A stretch of 64,000 nt of DNA from Ignavibacteria bacterium (GTDB taxonomy: Bacteria > Bacteroidota > Ignavibacteria > Kapaibacteriales > UBA4661): NCBI GenBank assembly GCA_947459425.1, contig CANHDJ010000012.1, positions 1 to 64,000 of the forward strand, in the 5' to 3' direction. Positions 159 through 26,120 of this stretch are shown here, piece by piece (position 1 is the first letter of the stretch; each line of letters starts with the position of its first letter). The notes below the pieces were generated by a model. It was not told the origin of the DNA and made no database searches. It saw nothing but the letters and a program-made list of their open reading frames with translations. The position numbers and the translations under genes are program-made.

Positions 159-1220
159 TCAATTCGTCGTGTGAAATTTCACCATGTTGAGCTGAACTTG
201 TGTTGTCAAATCTTTGCAGTTAAAATGTCCGTAAGGAACGGCAGAATAGACTTTTTCACCCGTTTGACCCGGAATGCGAGACGTATAGCGACCATACACT
301 AAATTTGCAAAGCCGATAATCTCATCTACGGTGGACCAAATCGAGTAGCGGTACGCCCCTTCATAGCTGGAACTGGAGTTCAGGTCTTGCAGAATGTTCG
401 AGAGTCCGAGCGGTCCGATAGCATAGCCCGGATATAAACCGTTAGTGGCTGCACAGGTAGGAGTGGAGCCGCTTGTCTGATAACATGAAACCAAGCCCCA
501 ATTTGCTCCGGCAATACCCACAAATGCATCCACGCGGGAACTAAGCGGCGATCCCAGATTGTATGCGCCTCCGTTCAGTAAATCACTTGCCGAACCGCCT
601 TTGATTGCCTTGCGTGCAAGTGTTACACCCATTGAATGACCGATAATATCTACCTTTTGCGCTCCTGTATAAGCCAACACTGCTTCAATAAATCGCCGAA
701 CACGGGTTAAATACGGACGAGAATGATATTGCTGTGCGGAAAGTGCCGCATTTGCCGAACCCCACGTCATGGCATACATTTCCGATGATTTATAGCCTTG
801 CGATTGAAAATGCGAAATAGAATTTGTCCAGCCGTTCTGTCCAAACGTCGTTCCTACGGCGCGGTCTGAGTTACCATGAATGAAGATAACGGGTTGATTT
901 AGGGGATTGTCTGAGGAGCTTGTGCGTCCGCCGTAGCAGGCGATATTGCTGAAGTTATCCGAGCCATAGCCGTTATTTTGAAGCCATGTAGCAAAGTGCG
1001 ACGTAAAGCCCGAAGGAACAGATTGCAGTTCTGTACCCGTTTCTTTCTCGCTGCTTGAGGTCTTTTCGGTAACTGTTTGAGGAGGTGTTTCTTCAGGAAT
1101 ACGGCTTGAAATGCGCACTGGTTCTTGTGCGGTACTACATGAAACAATGACATACCCTATTACCCCCATTAACGACAACAAACCAATACGACGAACCGAA
1201 GCCATAGCAAATGCTTTCAT
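159..1220 (-). CDS. Surface lipoprotein lipase, PhaZ7-like PHA depolymerase candidate
   Basis: A 353-residue alpha/beta hydrolase of the Lipase_2 type. The start chosen (1220) has AGGAG about 9 bases upstream and opens a lipoprotein signal peptide with lipobox IVSC (Cys28). A Ser/Thr/Glu-rich linker (29-70) precedes the catalytic domain. The oxyanion region is VIFIHGN (111-117) and the nucleophile is Ser196 in GHSMG; Asp299 and His332 are the likely triad partners. The segments VDIIGHSMG and GLVSCY...PTC resemble, from memory, PhaZ7 of Paucimonas lemoignei, which attacks amorphous PHB. The gene is divergent from phaE, and both promoters carry the same palindrome in opposite orientation. A plain triacylglycerol lipase is the alternative. 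The fold is certain; the substrate is inference. Confidence 0.8.
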   Translation of the reverse strand: MKAFAMASVRRIGLLSLMGVIGYVIVSCSTAQEPVRISSRIPEETPPQTVTEKTSSSEKETGTELQSVPSGFTSHFATWLQNNGYGSDNFSNIACYGGRTSSSDNPLNQPVIFIHGNSDRAVGTTFGQNGWTNSISHFQSQGYKSSEMYAMTWGSANAALSAQQYHSRPYLTRVRRFIEAVLAYTGAQKVDIIGHSMGVTLARKAIKGGSASDLLNGGAYNLGSPLSSRVDAFVGIAGANWGLVSCYQTSGSTPTCAATNGLYPGYAIGPLGLSNILQDLNSSSSYEGAYRYSIWSTVDEIIGFANLVYGRYTSRIPGQTGEKVYSAVPYGHFNCKDLTTQVQLNMVKFHTTN

Positions 1221-1269
1221 ATCACACGCTCCTGAATAATTTGTGAACACACAAAAGAAAATATTTATT

Positions 1270-1287
1270 GTTTGATTTGTTTCAAAC
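1270..1287 (-). promoter_or_regulatory. Operator-like palindrome A in front of the lipase gene
   Basis: GTTTGATTTGTTTCAAAC: half-sites GTTTGA and TCAAAC separated by six bases, ending 49 bases before the lipase start. It is the exact reverse complement of site B in front of phaE. The 1221-1524 intergenic space holds these two sites and otherwise AT-rich DNA. The binding protein is unknown; the GbsR-type regulator at 4586 is the nearest candidate. Confidence 0.55.
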
Positions 1288-1450
1288 GTTAGTGTTGGTA
1301 AAATACATTTTTTTTTCGATAAAGTCAAGAATTTCCTGCGCGATTATCCTCTGAAATAATATTGTTTTAGGCGATATAATGTAGAACTCGCGTGAGCAAG
1401 AGAATATTTGCACAAAGCAAAGAAAAAATTGACAATGATTGAAAATTTTG

Positions 1451-1476
1451 TTGCGTTTGAAACAAATCAAACGCAA
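1451..1476 (+). promoter_or_regulatory. Operator-like palindrome B in front of phaE
   Basis: A 26-base palindrome with two perfect 10-base arms (TTGCGTTTGA and TCAAACGCAA) around AACAAA. Its 18-base core (1455-1472) is the reverse complement of site A and lies 52 bases before the phaE ATG. It is the most symmetrical of the four sites in the PHA region. Confidence 0.6.
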
Positions 1477-1524
1477 AAAATCAAACACAGTATTTTATCA
1501 TATCCAATTTCTCAGGAGTTCGTT

Positions 1525-3096
1525 ATGAAAAAGCAATTCACACAAGGAGATTTCTACACCGAATGGATGCAAGGACAGCAAGCACTGATTGCAAGATGGT
1601 CGGAATCAGCACAAAAAGCTACTGATGCTTTTTTGAAAGGGGATGTGAGTGAGGCAATGAAAACCAGTGCCGAAGGCTTATCAAATGCTTATTCCTCAGC
1701 CGTAGAGCAGCAAACGGCAATGTCAAAACGCATGATGAGCGAAGCAGAAACAACGACGCAGCAATTCGCTGCGCCATTTGCCAGTTCACCATTTTTCGGA
1801 GCGCCATTCAACGGGGCATCCTTGAGCGGAACACCGTTTGGTGCTATGTTTTCGGGCAATCCGTCCTCGGTGAATCCTTTGCAAATGATGCAAGAATGGG
1901 CTGCATGGCAACAATCCATGCAAAAAGCAATGATGCCGCCTTGGGGACAGATGTTTGCGCAATTTGCTCCGCAGGGCAATCCAAACTTCTTCGATCAATG
2001 GACACGCTTCGCCGAAGCAGGTGCTTCGTCGTTTTCCATGCTGTCACAGGTTGCAAAAATGTACGAGCAATGGCAGCATTTGTCGCAATCGTGGGGTGTT
2101 TCGGTGCAGAAAATGTATAGTTCAATGGCAGAAACAATGCCTTCCGGCGTTGCAAAGGACACATTTCGGAATATGTTCTCTGGCGCGACGGTCTATATGA
2201 AACTGTTTGAACTTTGGATGCCGCTTCTGGACACAATGAAAGCAGGAAAAATGCCTACAAGCGAGGAAATTCAACACGCCCTTTCTCCCGGAAAATACAA
2301 GGAAGTTATTGATGCGCTGTTCGAGTTCATGATTCCAGAGCAGATGCAAACGCTCTTTGCACAAATGAACTCCTTCACGCAATCGCTCAATCTTTCGGGC
2401 AATCAAGCATCAAGAATAATGATGGCGCAAATGGAGCAAAATGCAAAAATGATTTTCGGTATGATGGCGCATAACCCTGAAGCGGCGTTGAATGTCTATA
2501 ATACGCTCATGTCCACGTATCAACAAGCTATCTCTTCGATGAATGCACTCCCGATGAACCAACGCCAAAGCGAACTTGCCGAAATCGCGCAGCACATCAT
2601 GGGGCGCATGGGAGAATATGCGCAAACTGTAACGAAATTCCAGCATTTGCTCTATTCCAACGGTCAAAAAGCCTTGGAACAACTGACAGAATCTGCCTTT
2701 GCAACGGGGCGTAACAAGAAAGCATTGACAAATTTCGATGAGCTTTTCAAAACATGGGTAGAAACGAATGAATCTGTTTTCCATGATCTTTTTGAAACCA
2801 AAGAATACGGCACAGTCCAAAGCAAATTAGGGCAAATCAGCTCTCATCTCTATAAGGATTTTGAGCAAATGTTTGAGGTCATGCTGAAAGATTTTCCCGT
2901 CGTTACACGCTCACACATAGATGAATTAGCAAAAACCGTCTTTGAGCTAAAACGTAAAGTCCGCGATTTGGAAAAACAAGACGAGAGCCTTGATGATGAC
3001 GACGGGGAAATTGCCACATCAAAGGCGAAAACTTCTGCTCAAAAAACAGCTTCAAAAGGTGCATCAAACGCAAAAGCCGCCGTGAAGAAAAAGTAA
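1525..3096 (+). CDS. phaE: Class III PHA synthase subunit PhaE
   Basis: A 523-residue non-catalytic partner that activates PhaC on the granule surface. ATG 1525 was chosen because CAGGAG stands 7 bases upstream. The protein is rich in Met and Gln, helical, and has no membrane segment. The C-terminal block around FPVVTRSHIDELAKTVFELK followed by KRKVRDLEKQ matches the conserved end of PhaE proteins. It is longer than the Allochromatium protein (about 360). After that block comes an acidic DESLDDDD stretch and a Lys/Ala/Ser tail ending AAVKKK, like the DNA-binding tails of PhaM and histone H1-like phasins. phaC follows after 214 bases. Palindrome B lies in the promoter. Confidence 0.85.
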   Translation: MKKQFTQGDFYTEWMQGQQALIARWSESAQKATDAFLKGDVSEAMKTSAEGLSNAYSSAVEQQTAMSKRMMSEAETTTQQFAAPFASSPFFGAPFNGASLSGTPFGAMFSGNPSSVNPLQMMQEWAAWQQSMQKAMMPPWGQMFAQFAPQGNPNFFDQWTRFAEAGASSFSMLSQVAKMYEQWQHLSQSWGVSVQKMYSSMAETMPSGVAKDTFRNMFSGATVYMKLFELWMPLLDTMKAGKMPTSEEIQHALSPGKYKEVIDALFEFMIPEQMQTLFAQMNSFTQSLNLSGNQASRIMMAQMEQNAKMIFGMMAHNPEAALNVYNTLMSTYQQAISSMNALPMNQRQSELAEIAQHIMGRMGEYAQTVTKFQHLLYSNGQKALEQLTESAFATGRNKKALTNFDELFKTWVETNESVFHDLFETKEYGTVQSKLGQISSHLYKDFEQMFEVMLKDFPVVTRSHIDELAKTVFELKRKVRDLEKQDESLDDDDGEIATSKAKTSAQKTASKGASNAKAAVKKK

Positions 3097-3310
3097 GATT
3101 GCTCAATATGCTTCAAATCAAGACTAAATCTTGTGTACAGAAGATTTTTTGTGAATTGCGCTTCGCGCTGCAAAACTCTGAACGCTAGGTGTAGTGAGGA
3201 GTACAGGCAAAAAATAATAAAAGGTGCATGAAAAGCGCGTAAAACAAGCACTTTAGAAATCTTTTTTGGTTTTTTACCAATTCATTTTCACATTCTTTTT
3301 CGACGATGCA

Positions 3311-4441
3311 ATGAACACAAAAACGGAACACGAGAAGAATGACCGCGAACAAGCAAACGGCTTGAATGCGCGTTCTGCAATGGTGATTCAAACCATGACG
3401 GGCGTGTACGAGCGGCTGTTGCAGAGTTTGAGCGCGTTGCAAGAAGTGAAATCTGTCGAGGTTGGCGTATCGGAAAAAGACTGCGTTTGGGAAGACGGAC
3501 ACGTCCGGCTCTATCATTTCCGGCACAAGGCTGGAAAACAGCAACAGCGTGTCCGTACTCCTCTTGTTCGTACTCCGATACTGATTGTCTATGCACTCGT
3601 GAATCGCCCGTATATGCTGGATTTGCAGCCTGACAGGAGTTTGGTACAGCAGCTTTTGCTGAACGGCGTGGACGTGTATATGCTGGATTGGGGCTATCCG
3701 ACGCGCTTTGAGCATCATTTGACGCTTGACGACTACATTTCCGGCTTTGTGGATGATGCTGTTCATACGGTGAGAAATCATGCGGGCGTGAAGAAGGTCA
3801 ATGTCTTGGGCGTGTGTCAGGGCGGCACGTTTTCGACGATCTACGCGGCACTTTTTCCCGACAAAGTGCGAAACCTGATTACGATTGCCACGCCGATAGA
3901 TTTTTCGGTCAAAGACGGTTTGCTCTTTGAATGGGCGAAAGAGATGGACGTGGATGCAATGGTAGATTCCTTCGGTGTTGTACCTGCAGAGTTGTTGAAT
4001 GCTGGGTTTGTTATGCTGAAGCCGTTTGCGCGTTTGCAAAAATATATGGGGGCATTTGAGGCAATGAATGATGAAACAGCATTGATGAATTTTCTGCGGA
4101 TGGAACAGTGGATATTCGATAGTCCGGGGCAGCCAGGCGAGTGTTATCGGCAATTTATCACGGATTTATACCAGCAAAATTATCTTATTAAAGGCAAGTT
4201 GCAACTAGGGCGCAGAACTGTGAATCTTCAGAAAATAACGATGCCGCTTTTGAATATCTATGCTGCAAATGACCACATCGTTCCGCATAGCAGTACAAAA
4301 GCCCTCAATCGCTATGTCAGTTCTGAGGATAAAGAATTGTATGAGGTTCCGGGCGGACATATTGGGATTTTTGTTGGCTCGAAAGCGCAAAAAGAACTTG
4401 CCCCGAAAATCGCTGAATGGCTTGGAAAGCGTGATGAATAA
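3311..4441 (+). CDS. phaC: Class III PHA synthase catalytic subunit PhaC
   Basis: A 376-residue synthase that polymerises 3-hydroxyacyl-CoA. The lipase-like box is GVCQGG with nucleophile Cys169; Asp321 (ANDHIVP) and His350 (GGHIGIF) complete the triad. Spacing agrees with Allochromatium PhaC (Cys149, Asp302, His331) with an offset of about 20, and length fits class III (about 355). ATG 3311 was chosen because the first 15 codons of the longer frame are Phe-rich and unlike the family. The 214-base gap to phaE contains no clear terminator, so co-transcription is likely. A Trp after the box aspartate (MLDWGYP) is typical of the family. Confidence 0.95.
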   Translation: MNTKTEHEKNDREQANGLNARSAMVIQTMTGVYERLLQSLSALQEVKSVEVGVSEKDCVWEDGHVRLYHFRHKAGKQQQRVRTPLVRTPILIVYALVNRPYMLDLQPDRSLVQQLLLNGVDVYMLDWGYPTRFEHHLTLDDYISGFVDDAVHTVRNHAGVKKVNVLGVCQGGTFSTIYAALFPDKVRNLITIATPIDFSVKDGLLFEWAKEMDVDAMVDSFGVVPAELLNAGFVMLKPFARLQKYMGAFEAMNDETALMNFLRMEQWIFDSPGQPGECYRQFITDLYQQNYLIKGKLQLGRRTVNLQKITMPLLNIYAANDHIVPHSSTKALNRYVSSEDKELYEVPGGHIGIFVGSKAQKELAPKIAEWLGKRDE

Positions 4442-4585: not shown

Positions 4586-5281
4586 ATGAACGTCGCAACC
4601 GAAAATACAAGCACTATACCAATGGAAAAAGAACCGCGCCTTGAGGCAAATGGTACTGTAAGCAATTCTTCACCAGAAAGTGATTCTACTTCCGTCTCCT
4701 CGCCCGAAACACCGCTTCAAATGGATGAAACCAAACGCGAAATGCTCCAAGCCTTTGGCGAGGCGTATCGCGGATTTGGACTCAGCAAGCAAATGGGACA
4801 CATTGTAGCGCTATTGCTGTACTCGTCCCAGCCTTTGTCTCTGGATGAAATTACTGAGCAACTTGGCATGAGCAAAGGTCCGATTAGCCAAGTTACACGC
4901 CGTTTGAATGAACGTAATATCATTCGTAAAGTCTGGAATCCGGGGAGCCGCAAGGATTATTACGAAATTCAGCAAGAAGTTTTTGCCAATGCATTCCGAA
5001 ACTTTTCGCATCTTATTCACCACAATACCGAAATTGCGCAAGATTTAAGCCAAAAAGTACAGGGCGCAGAAGTTAATGTTGTGCCTGATAAAGACTTACT
5101 TTTGAAGCGATTAAAAGAAATGGAAACGTTCTATATGCTCATGGAAAAACACTTTGGCAATTTTCTCGAAGAGTGGGCTGTCACACGTCCGGCGCTGTAT
5201 GCCACGCCACAGGAAACGCCAAATGCGCAGGATACCTCAGAAAATGATTGGTTAGGGCATCGAATTATTGTCAATTCGTAA
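4586..5281 (+). CDS. GbsR/MarR-type winged-helix regulator
   Basis: A 231-residue predicted regulator. Residues 1-45 are a low-complexity leader. A winged helix follows (about 50-125) with recognition region LGMSKGPISQVTRRLNERNI, then a helical dimerisation tail. The pattern is that of the GbsR family. No Shine-Dalgarno sequence is visible. TTCCAAACGTT, resembling half of the palindrome found elsewhere in the locus, lies about 26 bases upstream, so autoregulation is possible. Its stop codon TAA is supplied by the end of the MITE; without the insertion the codons would read Ser-TAG, so the protein is unchanged. A role as PHA regulator is inferred from position only. Confidence 0.8.
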   Translation: MNVATENTSTIPMEKEPRLEANGTVSNSSPESDSTSVSSPETPLQMDETKREMLQAFGEAYRGFGLSKQMGHIVALLLYSSQPLSLDEITEQLGMSKGPISQVTRRLNERNIIRKVWNPGSRKDYYEIQQEVFANAFRNFSHLIHHNTEIAQDLSQKVQGAEVNVVPDKDLLLKRLKEMETFYMLMEKHFGNFLEEWAVTRPALYATPQETPNAQDTSENDWLGHRIIVNS

Positions 5282-5511: not shown

Positions 5512-6195
5512 ATGCAAATGAATTTTGCACTTGAACACAAACGAATCTTAGTAACGCAAGCCGACGAGTTCATGGGACCGGCTATTTGTACCATGCTGGA
5601 ACGTCAAGGTGCCATTGTCCACAAGCATTTTGGCTCTCTTATTGATGTACAGGCATCGGAACAACTCATCAGCGAATCGGGTGACGTTGATATTCTCATT
5701 GCAAATTTGGCGTTGCCTGCTCCGACTACCCGTGCGCACGAAGTGAGCGAAGAGGAATGGCAAGAGGTCTTTAACGTGCTTGTGCATCCGCTTCCGCGCT
5801 TGGTTCGGGCTGTTTTGCCGCAAATGATGGCGCGGAAATCGGGGAAAATTATCGTTGTGGGCAGCGCATCGGCACTGCGCGGGATAAATAGAGCCTCCAC
5901 TTACAGTGCCGCCAGAGGCACGCAGTTATCGTATGTACAGGCAATCGGTGTGGAACTCGCTCCGCACAATATCCAAGTGAACGCCATAGCTCAAAATTTT
6001 GTCGATAATCCAACCTATTTCCCTCCGGAAGTGCAGGCAAATCCTCGCTTTCAAGAACGTTTGAAGCGCGAAGTGCCTTTGGGCAGATTGGTTGCTGCCG
6101 AAGAAGATGCTGCGATGGTGGCGTATTTGTGTTCAGATGCCGCGAACTGTTTTGTCGGGCAGGTGTTTCCCGTTGCGGGTGGGTGGGTGATTTGA
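5512..6195 (+). CDS. Halohydrin dehalogenase-like SDR protein
   Basis: A 227-residue SDR-fold protein without the NAD(P) loop. Where a dehydrogenase has TGxxxGxG it has T15-x4-F20-x-G22 (TQADEFMG), the halide-pocket motif of halohydrin dehalogenases. The catalytic pattern is Ser118-x12-Tyr131-x3-Arg135, so Arg replaces the usual Lys; both signatures define the Hhe family (established knowledge). The C-terminal GQVFPVAGGW also resembles HheC (GQVFWLAGG). Such enzymes convert vicinal haloalcohols to epoxides and open epoxides with azide, cyanide or nitrite. The physiological substrate here is unknown. It lies between the PHA regulator and the PhaB-like reductase, so a degenerate, non-redox SDR partner of PHA metabolism is the alternative. 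Confidence 0.8.
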   Translation: MQMNFALEHKRILVTQADEFMGPAICTMLERQGAIVHKHFGSLIDVQASEQLISESGDVDILIANLALPAPTTRAHEVSEEEWQEVFNVLVHPLPRLVRAVLPQMMARKSGKIIVVGSASALRGINRASTYSAARGTQLSYVQAIGVELAPHNIQVNAIAQNFVDNPTYFPPEVQANPRFQERLKREVPLGRLVAAEEDAAMVAYLCSDAANCFVGQVFPVAGGWVI

Positions 6196-6350: not shown

Positions 6351-6368
6351 GTTTGAAAAATTTCAAAC
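6351..6368 (+). promoter_or_regulatory. Operator-like palindrome D in front of the phaB-like gene
   Basis: GTTTGAAAAATTTCAAAC: the same half-sites and six-base spacing as sites A and B, ending 62 bases before ATG 6431. Confidence 0.55.
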
Positions 6369-6430
6369 AAACTAAATGCACTAAACAAATAAAAACTTCT
6401 AAGAAAACTACTTTTTACTTCAAAAAACAC

Positions 6431-7174
6431 ATGAAACGACTCGACAATAAAATAGCTCTTATCACTGGCGGTATTCAAGGAATCGGACTCAAAACCGCAG
6501 AACTCTTCGCAAAACACGGTGCAACTGTCATTCTTTGGGACATCAACGAAGAAAAAGGGAACGCCGTTGTAGCCGAATTTACCGCACGCGGTGAAAAAGC
6601 AGCCTTCGCAAAAGTGAATGTGGCAAAAATCGAAGAAGTGCAAGCCGCCGCAAAAACTGCGATTGACGCTTACGGACGGATTGATATTCTTGTGAACAAC
6701 GCCGGAATTACCCGCGACGCGACCTTGCTCAAAATCACGCCTGAACAGTGGCAGCAGGTGATTGATATTAACCTCACGGGCGTGTTCAACTGCGCTCACA
6801 CGATTGCACCGTACATGGTCGAAAAAGGCTACGGACGCATCATCAATGCTTCGTCGGTGGTTGGATTGTACGGTAATTTCGGGCAGTCGAACTATGTTGC
6901 CACCAAAGCAGGAGTTATCGGCATGACCAAAGTCTGGGCAAAAGAACTCGGTCGCAAAGGAATTACCGTCAATGCTGTTGCACCGGGCTTTATCGGAACG
7001 GATATGCTGCTGACGATGCCGGAAAAAGTGCTTCAAGGAATGCGCGACAAAACCCCGCTTCAACGCTTGGGTACGCCGGAAGATATTGCCAATGCGTATT
7101 TGTTCCTCGCTTCCGACGAAGCAAGTTTCGTTACCGGAACGGTGTTGAGTGTGGATGGCGGCGTTACGCTGTAA
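6431..7174 (+). CDS. phaB: Acetoacetyl-CoA reductase / 3-oxoacyl reductase (PhaB/FabG type)
   Basis: A 247-residue classical SDR that reduces 3-oxoacyl thioesters to (R)-3-hydroxyacyl thioesters, the monomers for PhaC. The cofactor loop is TGGIQGIG (about 13-20), NNAG follows strand 4, and the active site is Ser in NASSVVG with Tyr and Lys in YVATKAG. The end FVTGTVLSVDGGVTL is typical. ATG 6431 was chosen because the longer frame adds 26 Lys-rich residues absent from the family and would overlap palindrome D. PhaB and FabG cannot be separated by sequence alone; the neighbourhood favours PhaB. NADPH or NADH preference was not judged. Confidence 0.85.
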   Translation: MKRLDNKIALITGGIQGIGLKTAELFAKHGATVILWDINEEKGNAVVAEFTARGEKAAFAKVNVAKIEEVQAAAKTAIDAYGRIDILVNNAGITRDATLLKITPEQWQQVIDINLTGVFNCAHTIAPYMVEKGYGRIINASSVVGLYGNFGQSNYVATKAGVIGMTKVWAKELGRKGITVNAVAPGFIGTDMLLTMPEKVLQGMRDKTPLQRLGTPEDIANAYLFLASDEASFVTGTVLSVDGGVTL

Positions 7175-7283
7175 TGCTCGCGGTCAGTAGTGCGGTTGTG
7201 AGAGTTTCAAAAATGTGTGTGAAGTTTTTACCATTGAAAATTACGACATCAAATCAGTAGTGGTGTCCGGAGGTTCAACAATT

Positions 7284-8291
7284 ATGAATAATGCCTTACT
7301 ACGGGCGACAGGCTCGTATGCTCCTGAAAATGTCATTCCGAATAGCTATTTTAATGAACTACTCGGCGAGGACGTAGATACGTGGCTCGTGGAGAATCTA
7401 ACAATTCGTGAGCGCCGTTGGTGTGCCGAAAACGAATCTACGGCGGATTTGTGCGAACACGCCGCTAACCGTGCTTTGAACAATGCCGGACTTCGCGGAG
7501 AAGAACTTGATTTGCTCATCATTGCGACCGACACACCGGAATACGTCTCGCCTTCGACGGCATCGGTTGTGCAGCACCGCATCGGAGCAAAAAATGCCGG
7601 AACATTCGATATTAACACGGCTTGCGCTGGTTTTGTAACGGGGATGGATATTGCTACAAAATTTATTCGTGCCGATGAACGTTACAAAAACGTGATGGTT
7701 ATTGGTGCGTATGCAATGAGCAAGTATCTCAACAAAACCGATAAAAAGACCGTTACGCTCTTCGCTGATGGTGCTGCGGCTGCTATTCTCGGTGCAGAGC
7801 GCATGAACGATGCTTCGCCCAAAGAGCAAAAAGGCTACCTTGCCAGCGAACTCCGCACACAGGGGCAGTTCTACGATTGGATGGGGATTTACGGCGGGGC
7901 AGCGCATCAGCCCACAACGCAAGAAGTCTATGACCACAAAGACCATTTGCTGAAATTCGTCAAAAAATTTCCCCGCGAACTCAATCCCGATATGTGGACG
8001 GATATGATTCAAACCGTCAGCAAACGTGCGGGCATCCTACCTGAAGAAGCACAGCACTACTTTTTTACGCAAATCAATATCAATTCGATTCGAGACACGA
8101 TGGAGCGCCTCGGCGTTCCGATGGAGCGATCGCATAATATCATGGATAGATTCGGTTATACAGGCTCGGCGTGTATCGGCATGGCACTTGATGATGCTAT
8201 GCAGCAAGGCAAAATCAAGTCCGGTGATAATCTGGTGTTTATGGGTTCGGGCGGCGGTTTGGCATTTGCAAGTTTGGCATTGCGCTACTAA
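7284..8291 (+). CDS. KAS III-like thiolase-fold enzyme with altered active site
   Basis: A 335-residue relative of FabH. GGAGG about 11 bases before ATG 7284 fixes the start. The acyl-binding Cys114 is present in NTACAGF. The two residues needed for decarboxylating condensation are missing: the motif normally HQAN reads TQIN (Thr262 for His), and the usual GNTS reads GYTG (Tyr292 for Asn). The substrate loop and the GSGGGLAFAS end are otherwise well kept. FabH-like proteins with altered residues include acyltransferases and OleA-like condensing enzymes. A function on 3-hydroxyacyl or acyl-CoA is suggested by the adjoining phaB-like gene (109 bases upstream). A housekeeping FabH is unlikely. 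Confidence 0.75.
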   Translation: MNNALLRATGSYAPENVIPNSYFNELLGEDVDTWLVENLTIRERRWCAENESTADLCEHAANRALNNAGLRGEELDLLIIATDTPEYVSPSTASVVQHRIGAKNAGTFDINTACAGFVTGMDIATKFIRADERYKNVMVIGAYAMSKYLNKTDKKTVTLFADGAAAAILGAERMNDASPKEQKGYLASELRTQGQFYDWMGIYGGAAHQPTTQEVYDHKDHLLKFVKKFPRELNPDMWTDMIQTVSKRAGILPEEAQHYFFTQININSIRDTMERLGVPMERSHNIMDRFGYTGSACIGMALDDAMQQGKIKSGDNLVFMGSGGGLAFASLALRY

Positions 8292-8333: not shown

Positions 8334-8441
8334 AACGATAGATTCTTTCACCCGAAAGGGATAAAACGAAGGCATCAATGACGGCGGCAGTTTGTGTGTA
8401 ATTCTTGTGTGTTCAAAATCCTCCCTTTTTGCCTTATCATT

Positions 8442-15014: not shown

Positions 15015-15126
15015 GGCAAAGAATCGCCAAATAATGCACGGTTTTATTGCCCGAAAGGGAATAACAATTTCAGAGACGTTCAATTCATTCATTTTTTGTC
15101 AAAATTTTTTTTCAGGATGGTGGAGT

Positions 15127-17929: not shown

Positions 17930-17994
17930 GTTTGAGTGTCAATCCGTACCGACGCTATTCTTTCACGGATTTTTTACCTCTTTTTTTCGACACT

Positions 17995-20301
17995 ATGAAA
18001 ACGCCAAACGCAAACTCATTTCAAGCAATCGTACTGCTCATCATTACGCTTTTCGCAAGCAATATTGCATTTGCTCAACTCACGCAGGTTACAGGCTTCG
18101 GTTCTAATCCCGGGGCGTTGAATATGTTCAAATTCGTTCCGGCAAATATCCCCGCCAATGCGCCGCTTGTGGTGGTGTTGCACGGTTGCACACAGACTGC
18201 CTCGCAATACGCTACCGAAACAGGTTGGAATGCGCTTGCCAACACGTATAAATTTTATGTGGTCTATGCCGAACAAAGCAGTTCCAATAATTCTTCACGA
18301 TGCTTTAATTGGTTTGAAAATGGCGATATTACTCGCGGTCAGGGCGAGGCACTTTCGATTAAGCAAATGACCGATAACATGAAAGCAAATCACTCCATTG
18401 ATGCAGGTAAAGTCTTCGTAACGGGCTTGTCTGCCGGAGGCGCGATGACCGCAGTGATGTGTGCGACGTACCCCGACGTGTTTCGTGCAGGTGCGGTGAT
18501 GGCGGGGCTGCCATATCGTGCTGGCATTGGCTCCAGTGCTGCGTTTCAGGCGATGAGTCCGGGCGTGGACAGAACGCCTCAGCAATGGGGAGATTTAGTG
18601 CGGAATCAAAATCCTTCTTTTGCAGGTACATGGCCCCGGATGTCAGTTTTTCATGGCTCAAGTGATTTTACGGTGCGCCCGATGAATATGACCGAAGTAG
18701 CCGACCAATGGACAAACGTGAATGGTGCGGATGCCACCGCAGACCAGACCACAACAGCGTTTGACGGTGTACCCGATATTACGCGCCGCGTCTATAACAA
18801 TTCCAGCAGTCAGCCTGTCGTGATTACCTACGATATTGCAGGAATGGGACACGCTATTGCTGTTGACCCCGGAACAGGCGTAAAACAAGGCGGAGCAACG
18901 GGTGGATATTCGGTAGATGAAAATTTCTACTCGTCGTACTGGGCAGCAGAATTTTTCGGAATTTTGAACACAGCCCCCCCAACTCCTCCCGCAGCACCGT
19001 CAAATCTCACTGCAACGGCAAGTTCAAGCTCGCAAATCAATCTCACGTGGACGGACAATGCAAGCGATGAAAGTGGTTATGTTGTGGAGCGCTCCGCAAC
19101 GTCGGGAAGCGGTTTTACCAGCATAACCACACTTGGCGCAAATGCGACTTCCTTTAGCAATACCGCGCTTACGGCAAGCACAACGTATTTTTATCGGGTT
19201 CGCGCCACGAATGCTGCTGGAAGTTCTGCCAATAGCAATGAAGCCAGCGCAACGACGCAAGCCGTACCGTCGAATCCTCCGACAGCACCTTCAAACCTCG
19301 TTGCAACCGCTACATCAAGCTCGCAAATCAACCTTACGTGGACGGATAACGCAAGTGATGAAACAGGCTATGTTGTGGAGCGTTCTGCAACGTCGGGAAG
19401 CGGTTTTACGAGTATTGCCACGCTTGGTGCAAATGCGACTTCCTTTAGCAACACGGGACTAACGGCAAGCACGACGTATGTTTATCGTGTTCGTGCGACA
19501 AATGCGGCAGGAAGTTCTGCCAATAGCAACGAAGCAAGCGCGACAACACAAGCATCTGCACCACCTTCGAGCTATACCATCCAGCAGCCAAACGGAACAA
19601 CATTTATCACAACATTGGCGAACGATAACACTGCACAATCCTTTACTTCACTGACGGCGGGAACAATTACCAGCGTAGAATTTCGTTTGCAACAAACCAC
19701 CACGAACACCGGATTGCGTATCTTTGCGGGGAATACCGTTTCGGGAACGCCTTTATATCAGCAAAGCGGCATGAATCTTGGCTCCGGCTGGCGGACAATT
19801 TCGCTCTCTACTCCTTTTGCCGTCTCAGCCAACACACAATACACCATTCAACTCACTCGCGCTTCGATAAACTATACGCCGTCGAATGCCTACGCGGGTG
19901 GGAATTTTTGGTACAATGCTATTTCCTACACCACATTTGATGCGGCGTTTCGGGTGAATATCTCAACGCAAGGCGGCGGCGGTGGTGGAGGCTTGCAAAG
20001 TGCTGATGAAATCGCACCAATCCTTGTCGCAGAAAAGCAAGAAGAGCTTGCTCCACAGTCTTCCGAATGGCTTCTCTATCCCAATCCGGCAAACGATGTC
20101 GTGAGTATCATTAGCCCCAGAAGCGCACAGCAAAAGCATTTGGCGGTGTATGACCTTTTGGGCAAAGAAATGATGTCGGTAGAATTGCGCGGAGAGCTAC
20201 AAACCGTGAACTGTGCGCAATTACCCGCAGGCGTATATTCTGTGCGCCTTAGCGACGAAAAGAGCGTGGTTGTGAAAAAATTAGTCATTCACGGGCGATA
20301 A
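17995..20301 (+). CDS. Secreted PHB depolymerase/esterase with two FN3 domains and T9SS signal
   Basis: A 768-residue exported hydrolase. The signal peptide ends near AFAQ (28). The catalytic domain (about 35-325) is of the PHB-depolymerase esterase family: VVLHGCTQ (59-66), nucleophile Ser146 in GLSAGG, Asp224 and His286. Two fibronectin III domains (about 332-423 and 426-518) are nearly identical to each other. A beta-rich domain (about 525-650, possibly substrate binding) follows, then a Gly linker and a Por-type sorting domain starting LLYPNPANDVV and ending KKLVIHGR. This is the layout of extracellular polymer-degrading enzymes, with T9SS replacing type II export. Feruloyl or acetylxylan esterases share the catalytic family, but the locus favours PHB. 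Confidence 0.85.
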   Translation: MKTPNANSFQAIVLLIITLFASNIAFAQLTQVTGFGSNPGALNMFKFVPANIPANAPLVVVLHGCTQTASQYATETGWNALANTYKFYVVYAEQSSSNNSSRCFNWFENGDITRGQGEALSIKQMTDNMKANHSIDAGKVFVTGLSAGGAMTAVMCATYPDVFRAGAVMAGLPYRAGIGSSAAFQAMSPGVDRTPQQWGDLVRNQNPSFAGTWPRMSVFHGSSDFTVRPMNMTEVADQWTNVNGADATADQTTTAFDGVPDITRRVYNNSSSQPVVITYDIAGMGHAIAVDPGTGVKQGGATGGYSVDENFYSSYWAAEFFGILNTAPPTPPAAPSNLTATASSSSQINLTWTDNASDESGYVVERSATSGSGFTSITTLGANATSFSNTALTASTTYFYRVRATNAAGSSANSNEASATTQAVPSNPPTAPSNLVATATSSSQINLTWTDNASDETGYVVERSATSGSGFTSIATLGANATSFSNTGLTASTTYVYRVRATNAAGSSANSNEASATTQASAPPSSYTIQQPNGTTFITTLANDNTAQSFTSLTAGTITSVEFRLQQTTTNTGLRIFAGNTVSGTPLYQQSGMNLGSGWRTISLSTPFAVSANTQYTIQLTRASINYTPSNAYAGGNFWYNAISYTTFDAAFRVNISTQGGGGGGGLQSADEIAPILVAEKQEELAPQSSEWLLYPNPANDVVSIISPRSAQQKHLAVYDLLGKEMMSVELRGELQTVNCAQLPAGVYSVRLSDEKSVVVKKLVIHGR

Positions 20302-20358: not shown

Positions 20359-21390
20359 ATGCAGAAACACACGCTCCAAACCACGCCCCTTCGGGTGCAT
20401 TACCGCACAAACGGCTCTACAACAGGCACTCCCGTACTGCTCATTCACGGGAATGTTTCTTCGTCGGTCTTTTTTGAAGAGTTGATTGATGCTTTGCCGC
20501 CGTCGCTCTACGTGGTTGCGCCGGATTTACGCGGCTATGGCGAGACAGAGGCTCTGGCACTTGATGCAACGCGGGGGCTGGGCGATTGGGCGGATGACAT
20601 TCATGCGTTGGTGGAAGCACTTGGTTGGCAGAAATTTCATTTGCTGGGATGGTCGCTGGGGGCGGGCGTTGCGATGCAATACGCGATTGACCACAGCGAC
20701 CGCCTTCTCAGCTTGACGCTGGAAAGCGCGATGTCGCCCTTTGGTTTCGGTGGAACGAAAGATGCAGCAGGAACGCCAACGTTTGCAGATTTTGCGGGTT
20801 CGGGTGGAGGCACGGCAAATCCTGAATTTACCAATCGTTTGGCATCGGGCGACACCAGCGAAGAAGACCCGAATAGTCCGCGCAATGTGATGAACACGTT
20901 TTACTTCAAGCCGCCCTTTCGTGCGCCGAAAGACCGCGAAGATGCTTATGTTGGCGGTATGCTTTCCACAAAAACAGGCGAAGGCTTTTATCCGGGTGAT
21001 TTGACCACTTCTGAGAATTGGCCCACTCTTGCTCCCGGCACCAAAGGCATCAATAACACGATTTCACCGAAATACTGCAACCTGAAAACGTTTGCAAACA
21101 TTGCCCACAAGCCGCGTGTACTCTGGATTCGCGGCGCAGACGACCAAATCGTTTCCGATACCTCGCTGTTTGATTTTGGGTACTTGGGTCAATTAGGCTT
21201 TGTTCCGGGGTATCCGGGAGCGGAAATCTATCCTGCGCAGCCGATGGTAAGCCAGCTTCGAGCGGTTTTGGACGCATACACCGGTAATGGCGGCTCGTAC
21301 AAAGAACTCGTTTGGTCGGAGTGTGGGCATTCGCCGCATATCGAAAAAGCCGCAGAGTTTCTTGCTGCCGTGAAGGAATTTTGGTCGTAA
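20359..21390 (+). CDS. Alpha/beta hydrolase, cytoplasmic copy
   Basis: A 343-residue esterase-like hydrolase with no signal peptide. Motifs: LLIHGN (27-32), PDLRGYG, nucleophile Ser99 in GWSLGAG, Asp in RGADDQIV (about 262) and His324 in ECGHSPHIEK. It is a paralogue of the next gene, sharing FGFGGTKD...GTP, PGYPG and CGHSPHIEK-type blocks, but the partner is exported. Fifty-seven bases separate it from the PHB depolymerase. Hydrolysis of 3-hydroxyacid dimers or oligomers inside the cell is a plausible role; no substrate can be read directly. Confidence 0.82.
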   Translation: MQKHTLQTTPLRVHYRTNGSTTGTPVLLIHGNVSSSVFFEELIDALPPSLYVVAPDLRGYGETEALALDATRGLGDWADDIHALVEALGWQKFHLLGWSLGAGVAMQYAIDHSDRLLSLTLESAMSPFGFGGTKDAAGTPTFADFAGSGGGTANPEFTNRLASGDTSEEDPNSPRNVMNTFYFKPPFRAPKDREDAYVGGMLSTKTGEGFYPGDLTTSENWPTLAPGTKGINNTISPKYCNLKTFANIAHKPRVLWIRGADDQIVSDTSLFDFGYLGQLGFVPGYPGAEIYPAQPMVSQLRAVLDAYTGNGGSYKELVWSECGHSPHIEKAAEFLAAVKEFWS

Positions 21391-21416
21391 TACTCGATTT
21401 TTTTGAAAGAAAAACC

Positions 21417-22595
21417 ATGAAAGCCGCATCAAAACTTCTGTTTATCGTTGCTATGGCAATTCCGATGCTCCAAAAAATCGTGATACAGCCGCACACCCTT
21501 CACGCTCAGGAAACACCTCAAAAACAGGAAATACCTGTGATGCAAGGTATTCGAGCGGAGCGCATTACCACAAGCCGCATCACAACGCGCGTCCTGTTCT
21601 CCGGGGAAACTAGTGGGATTCCTGTTATGTTTTTGCATGGGAATCTTTCCTCTGCTACGTGGTGGGAGGAGACGATGTTGGCTTTGCCAAAAGGTTTTCG
21701 TGGTATTGCGCCTGATTTACGCGGCTTTGGCAGCGCGGACACGAGCAAATACGTGAATGCACGGCGCGGCGCGGGTGATTGGGCGGATGACCTCATTGCG
21801 CTCATGGATAAACTCGGTATTGCCAAAGCGCATATTGTCGGGCATTCGCTCGGCGGGTACGTGGTTTGGCGCATGATGGCTGATTATCCTGAGCGTTTGC
21901 TTTCGGTAACGCTTGTTGCGCCGGGTTCGCCGTTTGGTTTTGGCGGAACAAAAGACACACTCGGAACGCCGTGTTACAGCGATTTTGCGGGAACGGGAAG
22001 CGGTCTGGCGAATAAACTGCTCATCAAAGCAATCAAAGACGGTGACCGCTCGACGAACTCCCTTTTTACGCCGCGTTCAGCATTGCGGAATGTTGTTTTG
22101 AAAGCACCCTTTGTTCCGAAGCGCGAAGAGGAATTACTTTCGTCCATGATGAGCGTTCATCTAGGCGAGAAAGCGCTTCCGGGCGATGCCGCACCAAGCA
22201 AGAACTGGACAGGTTTTGCGCCCGGCGAATGGGGTGCTGTCAATGCACTTTCACCAAAATATGCGGGCGGCATGGCGGACAAACTTGTGCAAGCAAAAGT
22301 GAAAGTATCAGTTTTGTGGATTCGCGGTAAAGATGACCTTGCTGTCAATAACAATGCGGCTTCTGATGTCGGAACGCTCGGCGCACGAGGTTTTATCCCG
22401 AATTATCCCGGCAAAGACGTGTTTCCTCCTCAACCAATGCTCGACCAAACCCGCACCGTGCTTGAGCGGTACAAGCATTCAGGCGACTCCTACAAGGAAG
22501 TCGTGTTGGAAAATTGCGGACACACGCCCTATATCGAAAAACCGCAGGAATTTAACGAGGTTTTTCATGCACATTTGCTCAGAACGCAGAAATAA
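21417..22595 (+). CDS. Alpha/beta hydrolase, exported copy
   Basis: A 392-residue paralogue of the upstream gene with a signal peptide (hydrophobic LLFIVAMAIPMLQKIVI, then HTLHAQ). Motifs: MFLHGN, PDLRGFG, Ser nucleophile in GHSLGG, Asp in GKDDLAV and His in ENCGHTPYIEK. ATG 21417 lies 26 bases after the upstream stop, so the two genes are probably one transcript. A periplasmic or secreted counterpart acting on the same class of ester is inferred from the pairing. Confidence 0.82.
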   Translation: MKAASKLLFIVAMAIPMLQKIVIQPHTLHAQETPQKQEIPVMQGIRAERITTSRITTRVLFSGETSGIPVMFLHGNLSSATWWEETMLALPKGFRGIAPDLRGFGSADTSKYVNARRGAGDWADDLIALMDKLGIAKAHIVGHSLGGYVVWRMMADYPERLLSVTLVAPGSPFGFGGTKDTLGTPCYSDFAGTGSGLANKLLIKAIKDGDRSTNSLFTPRSALRNVVLKAPFVPKREEELLSSMMSVHLGEKALPGDAAPSKNWTGFAPGEWGAVNALSPKYAGGMADKLVQAKVKVSVLWIRGKDDLAVNNNAASDVGTLGARGFIPNYPGKDVFPPQPMLDQTRTVLERYKHSGDSYKEVVLENCGHTPYIEKPQEFNEVFHAHLLRTQK

Positions 22596-22652: not shown

Positions 22653-23204
22653 ATGAAACGTTTTCTTTCTCTCGCTCTAACTGCGTGTGTTGCAGTTTGG
22701 ATGGTGTCTTGTGCGGCAGGTACAGACACGGGTAACAACAACAATCAACAAAACGACGCAACAGGCGGGCTGGTCGGTACGTGGGTTTCGGCAGGTCAAG
22801 ATGTCGCGCCACTGCTTAAAATTCCGCTTATTGCTTCTGACTCAATTACGGCTAATTTTAATGCACAAGGTGGTTATAGTGTAACATCGTATTCCGCTCG
22901 CAATGGCAACATAAGCTATACGGGTTCATACACTGTGGCTAAAAGCACAAAAGATACGCTTGGTGCGACAATTTATACCATTGATATTCGCCAAGCAACA
23001 CCAGGAATAGCGCGTGTTCAAGGAATTTATGTTGTACAAACATCAGTCTCACCCGCACGAATGCTCTATGAAGTAGTTCAGGTTGAATCTCCGGCTGGCA
23101 CTCCTCCGACCGTTGCCAGTGGTTTTGGGACATCGAAAGATGTAACTGGTAGAGTGCTTGCTGCTTTAGGTTTATCGAATGTTCAAGTTTTCCGCAAACG
23201 CTAA
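22653..23204 (+). CDS. Small lipoprotein of unknown function
   Basis: A 183-residue lipoprotein: signal peptide with lipobox MVSC (Cys20), an Asn/Gln-rich linker (about 27-36), then a beta-rich domain beginning LVGTWVS, the opening typical of lipocalin-like or extracellular ligand-binding domains. The leader TTTTGGAGAACC before its ATG is repeated in front of the alpha/beta hydrolase at 25134, which suggests a shared 5' segment. It lies 57 bases after the exported hydrolase and is followed by a strong terminator. I do not recognise a family. Confidence 0.75.
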   Translation: MKRFLSLALTACVAVWMVSCAAGTDTGNNNNQQNDATGGLVGTWVSAGQDVAPLLKIPLIASDSITANFNAQGGYSVTSYSARNGNISYTGSYTVAKSTKDTLGATIYTIDIRQATPGIARVQGIYVVQTSVSPARMLYEVVQVESPAGTPPTVASGFGTSKDVTGRVLAALGLSNVQVFRKR

Positions 23205-23220
23205 ACCCTTACTCTCCTTC

Positions 23221-23272
23221 AAGCCCGCAAGAAACCACCGTTCTTCAACGCTTGCGGGCTTTTGTTTTTTTT
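23221..23272 (+). terminator. Strong intrinsic terminator
   Basis: Perfect 11-bp stem AAGCCCGCAAG / CTTGCGGGCTT with a 19-base loop, followed by TTGTTTTTTTT. It ends the hydrolase-lipoprotein transcript. Confidence 0.9.
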
Positions 23273-23308
23273 AGGTCAATTTTTTTGAAGCATTTTTTCG
23301 GAGGCGTA

Positions 23309-25084
23309 ATGCGTCGTTTTTTCTACCCTTTGTCATTGAGTGTTGTCATTCTTTCTCATTTGCTCATAAGCCCGATTGCAAGCCACGCGCAAGCAATTTC
23401 GGAAGGTTTGGGAACGGGGCGGGGGATGCGACTTTCTCCTGAAACAACGCTGATTCCTCCCGCGATGCGTCCTCAGTCAGAGCAGTTTTACCCTTTGACC
23501 GACGTGGAGCAAAAGCAGATAGTCAATTCGGCTCTCGTGAGTGGGGATTCTTTACTGGCGCAGTTTTCTTTGACCAAAGCCGCACCGAAAGAGCATCCAC
23601 GCGAGTTTCAGTTTTTGGCGTTTTACTACACACAAGCCGTTGCTTCCAGTGTGTACAGCGCGAATCCCTTCACGGGCGAAGTGCTGGGGCGGCTTTTCGG
23701 GGAGAATCAATCAAAAACCACGCCCGGTTCTGCGCTCTACATGGAGCAGCGTATTTTGCCGTTTTTCATCTACCAACCGAAACTTTTCGACGGACGCGCC
23801 ATTTTGCGGGCTGCTTTCGAGATTGATTGGACGTGGGGCGATGAATCGTACCTCGTGGGCGGCAATCGCGGCGGGGCTTTTAACGGCGGGCGGGTGAATA
23901 TCCAAACGCAGAATATCGAATTGGAGCTGCTTCCGGGCGATAATTGGACAATCAATATCGGGCTGCAACGCCTTTTCGACACGCAGTACAATCCCTACCG
24001 CACCTTTGCCAATACCATGCTCCAAACCGGATACCGCCTTGCGTTTTGGGGAAGCCATGCAACGGGAATTACGGTGAGAAAAGATGAAGATTACTGGCGC
24101 TTGAAAACAGGGTATTACGTGCTGTACGCCCGTGAACCCGAACAGCGCAACGGTGTGTCGCTTTTTGAAGCAAATGCGGAATTTGACCTCACTTCGGAAT
24201 GGCGACAGGGCTTCTCGGCGTGGTATTTGATGGACAAGGCAAACGGGCAAGCGGGCATACCGACGATTAACGAAGGTTTGTCCAGTCCGCTCACGGAGTG
24301 GAATGGCACGTTTCGTTTTCGCTTTCCGTTTACCAATTCTGCTGATTTGAATAATCGCTACGAAGCCGATATTTTCTGGCTTGGCACCTACGGCAGCTAC
24401 AATCCCGAATTTCAAAACGGGCGTTTGGGCGGTTCGATGTTTGCGATTGCGAATCTTGGCACGGCGTATATGTTCGACCAAGGCGCGTGGCAAAAAGGCG
24501 CGGATATTTTCGGGTATGCACTCAACGGGCGCGTGGGCTACCGCTACGGGCAAACGCAGGACGACCTTGTGCAGATTGATGTGCTGTACAGTTCCGGCGA
24601 TGCAAACGGTCTGAACGACAAGCAGTATTCGGGCGTAATTACGGGCAATACGTGGGGTTTTCCGGGTTCGATTTTCGTCGGACACGGCGCGTATTTAGTC
24701 TTTCCGCATGGCAACGTCGTGAATCGTTTTATCGGCGCGGTGAGCGATTTGTCGAATTTAGGCTACGGCGTAACGGGCGGTATTTTCAACGTCAGCAACG
24801 ATATTATTCCGCACAAACTTTCTGCGCGACTTGGCGCGGCTGCGGCGTTTTCCAACGTCAATCCTCCACGCGGTGCATCCACGCAGCCGATTGATAATTT
24901 CATCGGTTGGGAAACGAATGCCCGCTTGATCTATCAACTGGGCGTGTTTATGAGTCTTGAGTTTCATGCGGCGTATATGTGGCTTGGTAACTATTACAAC
25001 AGCCCGCGAGTGAATGGTGATTCGCCTACAAAGCCCGTGAATCCTTGGACGACGTTTCTTGCTTTTCGCTGGTTGATGTTTTGA
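23309..25084 (+). CDS. Outer-membrane beta-barrel protein, porin-like
   Basis: A 591-residue exported protein. GGAGG stands just before ATG 23309. The signal peptide ends near ASHAQ (28). The body is a series of alternating, aromatic-rich strands with turns such as WTWGDESYLVGGN and LEADIFW-like repeats, and it ends in Phe (RWLMF) as outer-membrane barrels do. There is no plug domain, so it is not a TonB receptor. It resembles alginate-export or carbohydrate porins only in general form. Position between the lipoprotein and an exported hydrolase suggests passage of oligomers; that is inference. Confidence 0.7.
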   Translation: MRRFFYPLSLSVVILSHLLISPIASHAQAISEGLGTGRGMRLSPETTLIPPAMRPQSEQFYPLTDVEQKQIVNSALVSGDSLLAQFSLTKAAPKEHPREFQFLAFYYTQAVASSVYSANPFTGEVLGRLFGENQSKTTPGSALYMEQRILPFFIYQPKLFDGRAILRAAFEIDWTWGDESYLVGGNRGGAFNGGRVNIQTQNIELELLPGDNWTINIGLQRLFDTQYNPYRTFANTMLQTGYRLAFWGSHATGITVRKDEDYWRLKTGYYVLYAREPEQRNGVSLFEANAEFDLTSEWRQGFSAWYLMDKANGQAGIPTINEGLSSPLTEWNGTFRFRFPFTNSADLNNRYEADIFWLGTYGSYNPEFQNGRLGGSMFAIANLGTAYMFDQGAWQKGADIFGYALNGRVGYRYGQTQDDLVQIDVLYSSGDANGLNDKQYSGVITGNTWGFPGSIFVGHGAYLVFPHGNVVNRFIGAVSDLSNLGYGVTGGIFNVSNDIIPHKLSARLGAAAAFSNVNPPRGASTQPIDNFIGWETNARLIYQLGVFMSLEFHAAYMWLGNYYNSPRVNGDSPTKPVNPWTTFLAFRWLMF

Positions 25085-25133
25085 TGACCCTTCTTTCACG
25101 CTTTTTTCGCAATTGTCTTTTGGAGAACCCCCA

Positions 25134-26120
25134 ATGAACCGCTTATCACACTCTCTTGTTGTTTTTTGTATGCTTTTTGGAATAGGATTTTGGGTAAAAT
25201 TGTTGTTTTCGCCGGAACGTGCCGCAGCGCAAGAGACTATGCGCGAGAAAACGGAATTTCAGGATTTAGACTATCCGTTTCCAACGAAAACGATGGAACT
25301 TTCGGGCGGAGTACGCCTTGCATACACGGATGAAGGCGCAAGTACAGCGCGTGAGACGATTATTTTCATTCACGGCTTGGGATCGTATCTTCCAGCGTGG
25401 AAGCGGAATGTGGAGGCATTGCGCTCGGAGTATCGCTGCATTGCGATTGATTTGCCCGGCTATGGAAAATCCTCGAAAGGCGAATATCCGATTTCGATGA
25501 GTTTTTATGCGGATGTGGTTGCGGAATTTATCGGGAAACTTGGTCTGCAAAGCGCGATTTTATGCGGTCATTCGATGGGCGGACAAATTTCGATGACGGT
25601 TGCGCTGAAGCATCCGCAGAAGGTGAAAAAGCTGATTCTCTGCGCTCCGGCGGGATTTGAGGCGTTTTCGGAAGGGGAAAAACAGTGGTTCCGCGAGGTG
25701 GTAACGGCGCAGGGTGTACGTCTTACGCCTCCGGCACAGATTCGGACGAATCTCATGGGCAATTTTTACACGATGCCGCCTGATGCGGAGTTTATGATTA
25801 CGGACCGCATTTTGATGCGCGGGATGAAGCAGTTTGATTGGTATTGTTGGACGATTGTAAAGTCTGTGCAAGCAATGGTGAATGAGCCTGTTGTGGAGCG
25901 CTTGCATCAAATTCAGCAGCCGACGCTGATTCTTTACGGCGAGAATGATAATCTCATTCCGAATCCTTTTTTGCATGGTGGAAAAACGGAAAGTGTTGCG
26001 AAGGTGGGAGCATCGAAAATTCCGACGAATAAACTGGTCATCGTGCCGCGCTGCGGTCATTTCGTGCAGTTCGACCAATCAGAGTTGGTGAATGAGGAAA
26101 TACGGGGGTTTTTGCGGTAA
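25134..26120 (+). CDS. Exported alpha/beta hydrolase
   Basis: A 328-residue hydrolase. The N-terminus has a hydrophobic segment (about 7-26) and AAAQ, a signal peptide or anchor. Motifs: IIFIHGLG, LPGYGKSS, Ser nucleophile in CGHSMGGQ, Asp in YGENDNLIP and His in RCGHFVQFDQ. It is less related to the two tandem hydrolases than they are to each other. It is 49 bases after the barrel gene and shares the TTTTGGAGAACC leader with the lipoprotein at 22653. It closes the run of same-strand genes of the PHA region. Substrate unknown. Confidence 0.82.
   Translation: MNRLSHSLVVFCMLFGIGFWVKLLFSPERAAAQETMREKTEFQDLDYPFPTKTMELSGGVRLAYTDEGASTARETIIFIHGLGSYLPAWKRNVEALRSEYRCIAIDLPGYGKSSKGEYPISMSFYADVVAEFIGKLGLQSAILCGHSMGGQISMTVALKHPQKVKKLILCAPAGFEAFSEGEKQWFREVVTAQGVRLTPPAQIRTNLMGNFYTMPPDAEFMITDRILMRGMKQFDWYCWTIVKSVQAMVNEPVVERLHQIQQPTLILYGENDNLIPNPFLHGGKTESVAKVGASKIPTNKLVIVPRCGHFVQFDQSELVNEEIRGFLR

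Follow-up and report, generated by a model that had tools for sequence, protein, structure and literature searches.

An 18-gene polyhydroxyalkanoate locus of an Ignavibacteria bacterium comprises two separable gene groups

We have analyzed a gene cluster associated with polyhydroxyalkanoates (PHA) in an Ignavibacteria bacterium of the phylum Bacteroidota. The cluster occupies positions 159-26120 of the window, a stretch of 64,000 nucleotides from contig CANHDJ010000012.1 (assembly GCA_947459425.1), and comprises 18 open reading frames (ORFs), 17 on the plus strand and one, a PhaZ7-like gene, divergent on the minus strand (Table 1). It is made up of two separable groups of genes, a core operon and a PHA cassette. 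On balance it is probable that the locus is a composite, in which an old operon for uptake and a beta-oxidation-like pathway was joined in this genus to a cassette of PHA depolymerase and synthase genes. An earlier note, made from the sequence of the window alone, had described all of these genes as acting in a single pathway of PHA scavenging and storage.

In the composite proposed here, the backbone, roughly half of the 18 genes, would be an older operon of the phylum, encoding a MarR-family regulator, a FabG-type short-chain dehydrogenase/reductase (SDR), a KASIII/FabH-like protein, a transporter, an acyl-CoA ligase, the small protein p183, an outer-membrane channel and a secreted hydrolase. 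This core would import short ester-linked hydroxy acids. Because the PHA genes adjoin the core in this genus, 3-hydroxybutyrate oligomers are probably its likeliest substrate; they would be cleaved in the periplasm, and the acid would be taken up, converted to its CoA ester and oxidized towards acetyl-CoA. The genus would have added secreted PHA depolymerases, a chemoreceptor, extra hydrolases, a second ligase and a class III PHA synthase. A cell with both groups would solubilize external PHA and then direct the flux of 3-hydroxyacyl-CoA either into oxidation or back into polymer. From the distribution of the genes, an old core with PHA genes added in this genus would be the simplest history. 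If this is true, a likely substrate is provided for an operon whose KASIII marker occurs in 57 of the 395 genomes sampled from the phylum; a family of outer-membrane channels and a KASIII subfamily with changed residues are added, and the use of a polyester (bioplastic) would have been assembled in a cluster much like the loci for polysaccharides.

Conservation of the locus in the genus and the phylum

A phaC close to that of the window (68-100% identity) is found in five of the eight genomes of the genus and is absent from the other three; a second phaC, at 41-45% identity, lies elsewhere in all eight. A tree of 17 PhaC sequences, rooted at the midpoint for drawing only, places the five locus copies in a single clade (100/99). 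The eight second copies make up another (100/99), to which the only copy of G009, a genome of a related genus, also belongs. Sequences of G073, G092 and G182, from another family of the phylum, side with the locus copies on a long branch. The earlier note had proposed, as a check, to look in related genomes for co-occurrence of phaC and phaE with the other genes, and in part it is seen: in all five locus-bearing genomes the phaE-phaC pair keeps the PhaZ7-like gene, the MarR-family regulator, the chemoreceptor, ligase 1, p183 and the outer-membrane barrel. The alpha/beta hydrolase AbhR is present in four, the contig of the fifth stopping just after the barrel. The type 1 PHA depolymerase with its type IX secretion system (T9SS) sorting tail departs from this pattern, being found in three of the five, and six genes lie on another contig in two. 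G007 and G003 have it spread over two contigs each, both of which end inside the locus, and its continuity there is suggested by gene order. The clustering is conserved in other species, with a synteny that exceeds chance. Chance adjacency is scarcely credible: the gene order recurs from species to species and from contig to contig, and nothing was found in favour of chance.

The two genomes with displaced genes are G006 and G001, where FabG, KASIII, the major facilitator superfamily (MFS) transporter, the TonB receptor, ligase 2 and the hydrolase AbhO are together on a contig apart from phaC. This split divides the locus into two separable groups, core and cassette. In G009, which belongs to another genus, KASIII, MFS, ligase, TonB receptor, AbhO, MarR and AbhR form a group too, and the 20 kb fetched there contain no phaC. 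The earlier note had held that related genomes with phaC and none of the other genes would speak against a single pathway, and three genus genomes that bear a phaC but lack the locus do so: at the limits applied, neither the barrel, the window's depolymerase, the TonB receptor nor the close phaC was matched in G002, G004 or G005. Their phaC belongs to a clade separate from that of the locus, and in G004 a different type 1 depolymerase is matched at another place.

Relatives of the KASIII-like protein were identified across the phylum with a profile of six KASIII sequences, at an expected value (E) of 1e-75 or better. Three of the 57 genomes are of the window's genus, and stretches of 9.7 to 20 kb were fetched for 40 of the other 54. 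By tblastn (E 1e-8), these 40 core loci contain matches to ligase 1 or 2 (40), FabG (39), AbhR (38), MarR (34), the barrel (27), p183 (26), the TonB receptor (12) and AbhO (10); no match was kept to PhaC, PhaE, the PHA depolymerase, the PhaZ7-like gene or the chemoreceptor. Counts of predicted ORFs are lower, at 40 for the ligase, 37 for FabG, 32 for AbhR, 29 for MarR and 26 each for the barrel and p183, in 43 loci (the 40 plus three from the genus and family). Of the same 43, 8 have an MFS protein as transporter and 29 a symporter of the SSF family, with no locus having both. The window preserves the core order MarR-FabG-KASIII-transporter-ligase-p183-barrel-AbhR, with phaE-phaC upstream and the other genes inserted. 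No description of such a locus or uptake operon was found in searches of open-access papers, judged by titles and the opening of abstracts. Among the core loci, three have another, distant KASIII-like gene after the ligase (L210:13900-14928, L211:13601-14632 and L230:8026-9048), and a thiolase follows AbhR in L209, L210 and L211.

These distributions bear on the proposal of a single dedicated PHA scavenging-and-storage pathway whose 18 genes evolved together. In the window the genes do stand side by side, G007 holds the complete set over its two contigs, and the cassette set is kept in five of the eight genus genomes; to that extent the single pathway of the earlier note stands. Such a unit is nevertheless unlikely, given that G006 and G001 keep the two groups on separate contigs, that the core occurs in every one of the 40 other loci fetched with no PhaC/PhaE or depolymerase match, and that a halohydrin dehalogenase homologue included among the 18 genes has no PhaC or PhaE match nearby in the 68 loci scanned outside the genus (see below).

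Predicted functions and substrate of the core

The content of the core points to a route by which short ester-linked acids are taken up, hydrolyzed, activated with CoA and oxidized. This role is suggested by the thiolases, the MaoC dehydratase and the fatty acid transporter found with core loci, by the models that the hydrolases approach and by the likeness of the barrel. Of 78 listed accessory ORFs, 55 were scanned; thiolase is the commonest family (5) among the best 25 of 63 families, and a short-chain fatty acid transporter occurs once, under its NCBIfam cut-off. The MaoC dehydratase is in one core locus. The barrel has no Pfam or NCBIfam match, and its predicted model (pLDDT 71.3) resembles AlgE first (E 1.9e-16) and the Occ/OprD porins next. 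For AbhR, the NCBIfam model of intracellular poly(3-hydroxybutyrate) (PHB) depolymerases, i_nPHAscl, is among the best families, below its cut-off.

The KASIII-like protein has a FabH fold in its AlphaFold model (mean pLDDT 94.7), with structural matches headed by FabH enzymes. Like FabH it retains the active cysteine, but its subfamily lacks the Cys-His-Asn triad. In the 43 readable rows of a 46-row alignment, with the residue correspondence taken from a separate alignment, the cysteine is present in 43 of 43, the place of the FabH histidine is held by threonine in 42 and serine in one, and the place of the asparagine is tyrosine in all 43. The corrected 46-row alignment agrees, showing no variation at the cysteine and the tyrosine and very little at the threonine. 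In FabH, the histidine and asparagine serve decarboxylation. Since both places are changed, malonyl condensation of the usual kind is unlikely in this subfamily, and the altered triad rules out a plain FabH. Our best guess, from the sequence, would be that the protein works in a beta-oxidation-like pathway, by non-decarboxylating acyl transfer or perhaps by thiolysis. A role as sole thiolase was ruled out by the three thiolases encoded elsewhere in genome G000.

The link between core and PHA was also examined by co-occurrence in the 395 genomes. KASIII and a type 1 depolymerase over its cut-off are shared by 8 genomes against 2.6 expected (odds ratio (OR) 5.4), and at E 1e-20 by 21 against 10.5 expected (OR 3.2); leaving out the window's genus gives OR 4.6 and 3.0, respectively. 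Class III PhaC occurs with KASIII in 6 of its 8 genomes (1.2 expected), three of the six being from the window's genus. A chitinase control (E 1e-25) is enriched with KASIII as well (26 shared, 18.3 expected, OR 2.0, p 0.015), and the tests take no account of kinship; for these reasons co-occurrence gives weak support, and it was rejected as proof of a PHB substrate.

Several further points, like the chitinase control and the neglect of kinship, weigh against the composite history and its PHA-derived substrate. The substrate is not fixed by sequence. No depolymerase like the window's was matched in the 40 other core loci, and within the genus none was found at E 1e-15 in two of the five locus-bearing species. 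With three other thiolases in G000, the KASIII-like protein is not needed as a thiolase. In profile comparisons AbhR matches 4f0j (1.6e-39), the PHB depolymerase 8ynv (3e-34) and BphD (5.7e-34), so that it stands as near to BphD as to a PHB depolymerase. Neither ligase reaches the cut-off of any NCBIfam model among the best 25 of more than 100 for each, and the best two solved relatives of ligase 2, with equal scores, are feruloyl-CoA synthetase (376.8 bits) and a fatty-acyl-CoA synthase.

The feruloyl-CoA synthetase match and the nearness of AbhR to meta-cleavage hydrolases agree with another possibility, namely that the core serves a different acid ester, for example hydroxycinnamate esters, and that the PHA cassette lies next to it without sharing substrates. 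A gene that looks crotonase-like by eye adjoins the split core in G006 and G001, and the MFS transporter of locus L219 is nearest an aromatic acid symporter model, under its cut-off. We find this account rather doubtful, as no ring-cleavage family is among the best 25 of the 63 accessory families, where thiolases are commonest, and as the depolymerase, AbhN and ligase 2 sit between core genes in the window and not beside them.

As a cluster, the composite locus resembles a SusCD polysaccharide utilization locus in bringing together a TonB receptor, a secreted polymer hydrolase, further hydrolases, a transporter, a sensor and a regulator. It differs in that its target would be a polyester and not a glycan, the TonB receptor falls below the SusC cut-off (Table 1) and no SusD family is found among the 18 proteins. 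The likeness to a polysaccharide locus without SusD had been pointed out in the earlier note.

The PHA cassette and the halohydrin dehalogenase homologue

The synthase is of class III, with PhaC over the TIGR01836 cut-off (458.6 against 365.3 bits) and PhaE adjacent. PhaC has the lipase-box cysteine (GVCQGG, read in the translation). PhaE, of 562 codons by the longest ORF, exceeds the gathering score of its Pfam family (52.2 against 25.7) but not the NCBIfam cut-off (TIGR01834, 58.7 against 154.95). Compared with known class III synthases, this one is also set apart as a second genomic copy and by its linkage to secreted depolymerases.

By its catalytic-domain model, the ORF at 17923..20301 is an extracellular type 1 PHA depolymerase, with predicted activity on PHB: it scores 313.6 bits with NF050058, about twice the cut-off of 150. 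A T9SS sorting tail (TIGR04183) distinguishes it from the known extracellular enzymes, and the T9SS protein SprA was found in all five genomes searched. The earlier note's assignment of a T9SS-secreted PHB depolymerase is thereby confirmed at the level of sequence models. For the PhaZ7-like lipase, PhaZ7 is the nearest solved structure (E 2.8e-15, residues 125-305), although the gene fails the PhaZ7 model NF050060 (94.1 bits against a cut-off of 450, residues 123-302). A GHSMGV box can be read in its translation. In G003 this gene matches in three pieces (L041:7689-8705) and may be broken or mis-assembled.

The earlier note had also described paired alpha/beta hydrolases. AbhN and AbhO are indeed a pair, at 43% identity, and a third hydrolase, AbhR, closes the gene run. 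The best PDB match of AbhN is the PHB depolymerase 8ynv (E 1.9e-17, residues 15-143). Its best NCBIfam family is i_nPHAscl (111.8 bits against a cut-off of 300), and AbhO scores 93.2 with the same model. Of the two, only AbhO shows a signal-like N-terminus when the translation is read by eye. The N-terminus of AbhN and the presence of a PHA synthase agree with a purely internal role, in which the phaE-phaC cassette and the hydrolases would serve the cell's own granules and secretion would be incidental. Against this stand the T9SS tail of the depolymerase together with SprA in five of five genomes, the lipoprotein-like N-terminus of the PhaZ7-like lipase and the second phaC present elsewhere in all eight genus genomes, which make such a role very improbable.

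The ORF at 5512-6195 is, by sequence, a halohydrin dehalogenase homologue for which dehalogenase or epoxide activity is predicted. Among solved structures it is closest to 7b73 (307.8 bits) and 8xxb (292.2), two entries deposited as SDR, followed by HheB 4zd6 (181.7); we take 7b73 to be HheD2, a D-type label. Two fingerprint motifs of these enzymes, T-X4-F/Y-X-G and S-X12-Y-X3-R, are given in a passage of PMC11976700. Both are present and invariant in three of three genus sequences, as T15, F20 and G22 and as S118, Y131 and R135. The protein thus resembles halohydrin dehalogenases of the B/D type in motifs and closest relatives, and differs from them by its setting in a PHA locus in this genus. 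It is kept at 80% identity or more in three of the eight genus genomes (three of the five that bear the locus), which places a halohydrin dehalogenase in the same PHA-locus setting in three species.

Neighbourhoods of dehalogenase relatives do not extend this setting. From 132 loci 80 were kept, and 70 of these were scanned with the window proteins, the ten weakest (L151-L160) being omitted. PhaC and PhaE matches occur together only in two loci of the window's genus and neither was matched in the 68 scanned loci outside it, with flanks of at most 10 kb (less on short contigs) and with scope for a PHA synthase of another class to escape. AbhO-like genes are near the dehalogenase in 3 of the 70 loci, AbhR-like genes in 4 and FabG-like genes in 7, with a few loci having a ligase-like gene. 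When ORFs overlapping the dehalogenase are set aside, the most frequent family within 4 kb reaches no more than 6 of the 70 loci. A single plasmid record gave a match, at 42%. A part in the PHA pathway was rejected for the dehalogenase, on the grounds that PhaC/PhaE are nearby only in this genus and no neighbour family is conserved; it looks like accessory cargo kept in three species. Other physiological functions of halohydrin dehalogenases cannot be excluded, according to a passage of PMC4989007. A bolder extension of the composite reading, to be held tentatively, is that the core is a widespread and undescribed system for using polyester oligomers, the equivalent for esters of the polysaccharide loci, with its own outer-membrane channel family, and that the genus locus reveals its substrate. 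In such a system the KASIII-fold enzyme, with Thr and Tyr substituted for the decarboxylating His and Asn, would replace or assist thiolase in acting on 3-oxoacyl-CoA. The dehalogenase would remove analogues of 3-hydroxy acids that carry a halogen or an epoxide, so that these do not reach the synthase.

Gene content of the window

The ORFs of the locus are listed in Table 1. The 18 genes and most of the families named in the earlier note are borne out by the ORF list and by Pfam, NCBIfam and PDB matches. Two genes had gone unnamed: the dehalogenase homologue, which is the first SDR-like ORF of the run, and the KASIII/FabH-like gene. The label PhaB did not survive, as the SDR scores above the cut-off of a FabG equivalog and falls below the acetoacetyl-CoA reductase model AcAcCoA_reduct (265.3 against 302.1).

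Table 1. ORFs of the locus at 159-26120, with the model or relative on which each name is based (score against cut-off) and the likely start codon
Predicted product	Position	Strand	Basis	Likely start
PhaZ7-like secreted lipase/PHA depolymerase	159..1328	-	Lipase_2; lipoprotein-like N-terminus	ATG 1220
PhaE, class III PHA synthase subunit, long form	1408..3096	+	PF09712	ATG 1525
PhaC, class III PHA synthase	3266..4441	+	TIGR01836	ATG 3311
MarR-family regulator (CudC/GbsR-like), core operon	4586..5281	+	PF01047; CudC 67.7 < 218 bits	
Halohydrin dehalogenase homologue, accessory	5512..6195	+	PDB relatives, both dehalogenase motifs	
FabG/PhaB-type SDR, core operon	6353..7174	+	NF004198 310.5 > 296	ATG 6431
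KASIII/FabH-fold protein, core operon	7215..8291	+	Fold, Cys kept	ATG 7284
MFS transporter	8394..9731	+	PF07690	
sCache/dCache chemoreceptor, cassette gene	9786..11825	+	Pfam domains	
AMP-forming acyl-CoA ligase 1, core operon	11829..13379	+	PF00501/PF13193	
AMP-forming acyl-CoA ligase 2	13439..14947	+	54% identity to ligase 1	
TonB-dependent receptor with CarboxypepD_reg-like domain	15034..17823	+	TIGR04056 94.8 < 368.25	
Secreted type 1 short-chain-length PHA depolymerase, fn3 domains, T9SS sorting tail	17923..20301	+	NF050058, TIGR04183	
Alpha/beta hydrolase AbhN, PHB-depolymerase-like, without signal-like N-terminus	20359..21390	+	Best PDB match 8ynv	
AbhO, AbhN paralogue, signal-like N-terminus	21312..22595	+	i_nPHAscl top family	ATG 21417
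p183, small lipoprotein-like protein, core operon	22653..23204	+	Pfam/NCBIfam: no match	
Outer-membrane beta-barrel, AlgE- then OprD/Occ-like by fold, core operon	23252..25084	+	Predicted model	ATG 23309
Alpha/beta hydrolase AbhR, signal-like N-terminus, core operon	25113..26120	+	Profile matches	ATG 25134

An opposite-strand gene with Mur ligase domains comes after AbhR. Further along the window, a single ORF at 37186-38607 on the minus strand fuses a B12-binding domain to a MeaB GTPase, with no mutase domain at E 1e-10. At 31507-34731, an NrtR-like regulator, a NUDIX protein and a NAMPT-type phosphoribosyltransferase stand in a row, in what looks like a nicotinamide salvage cluster.

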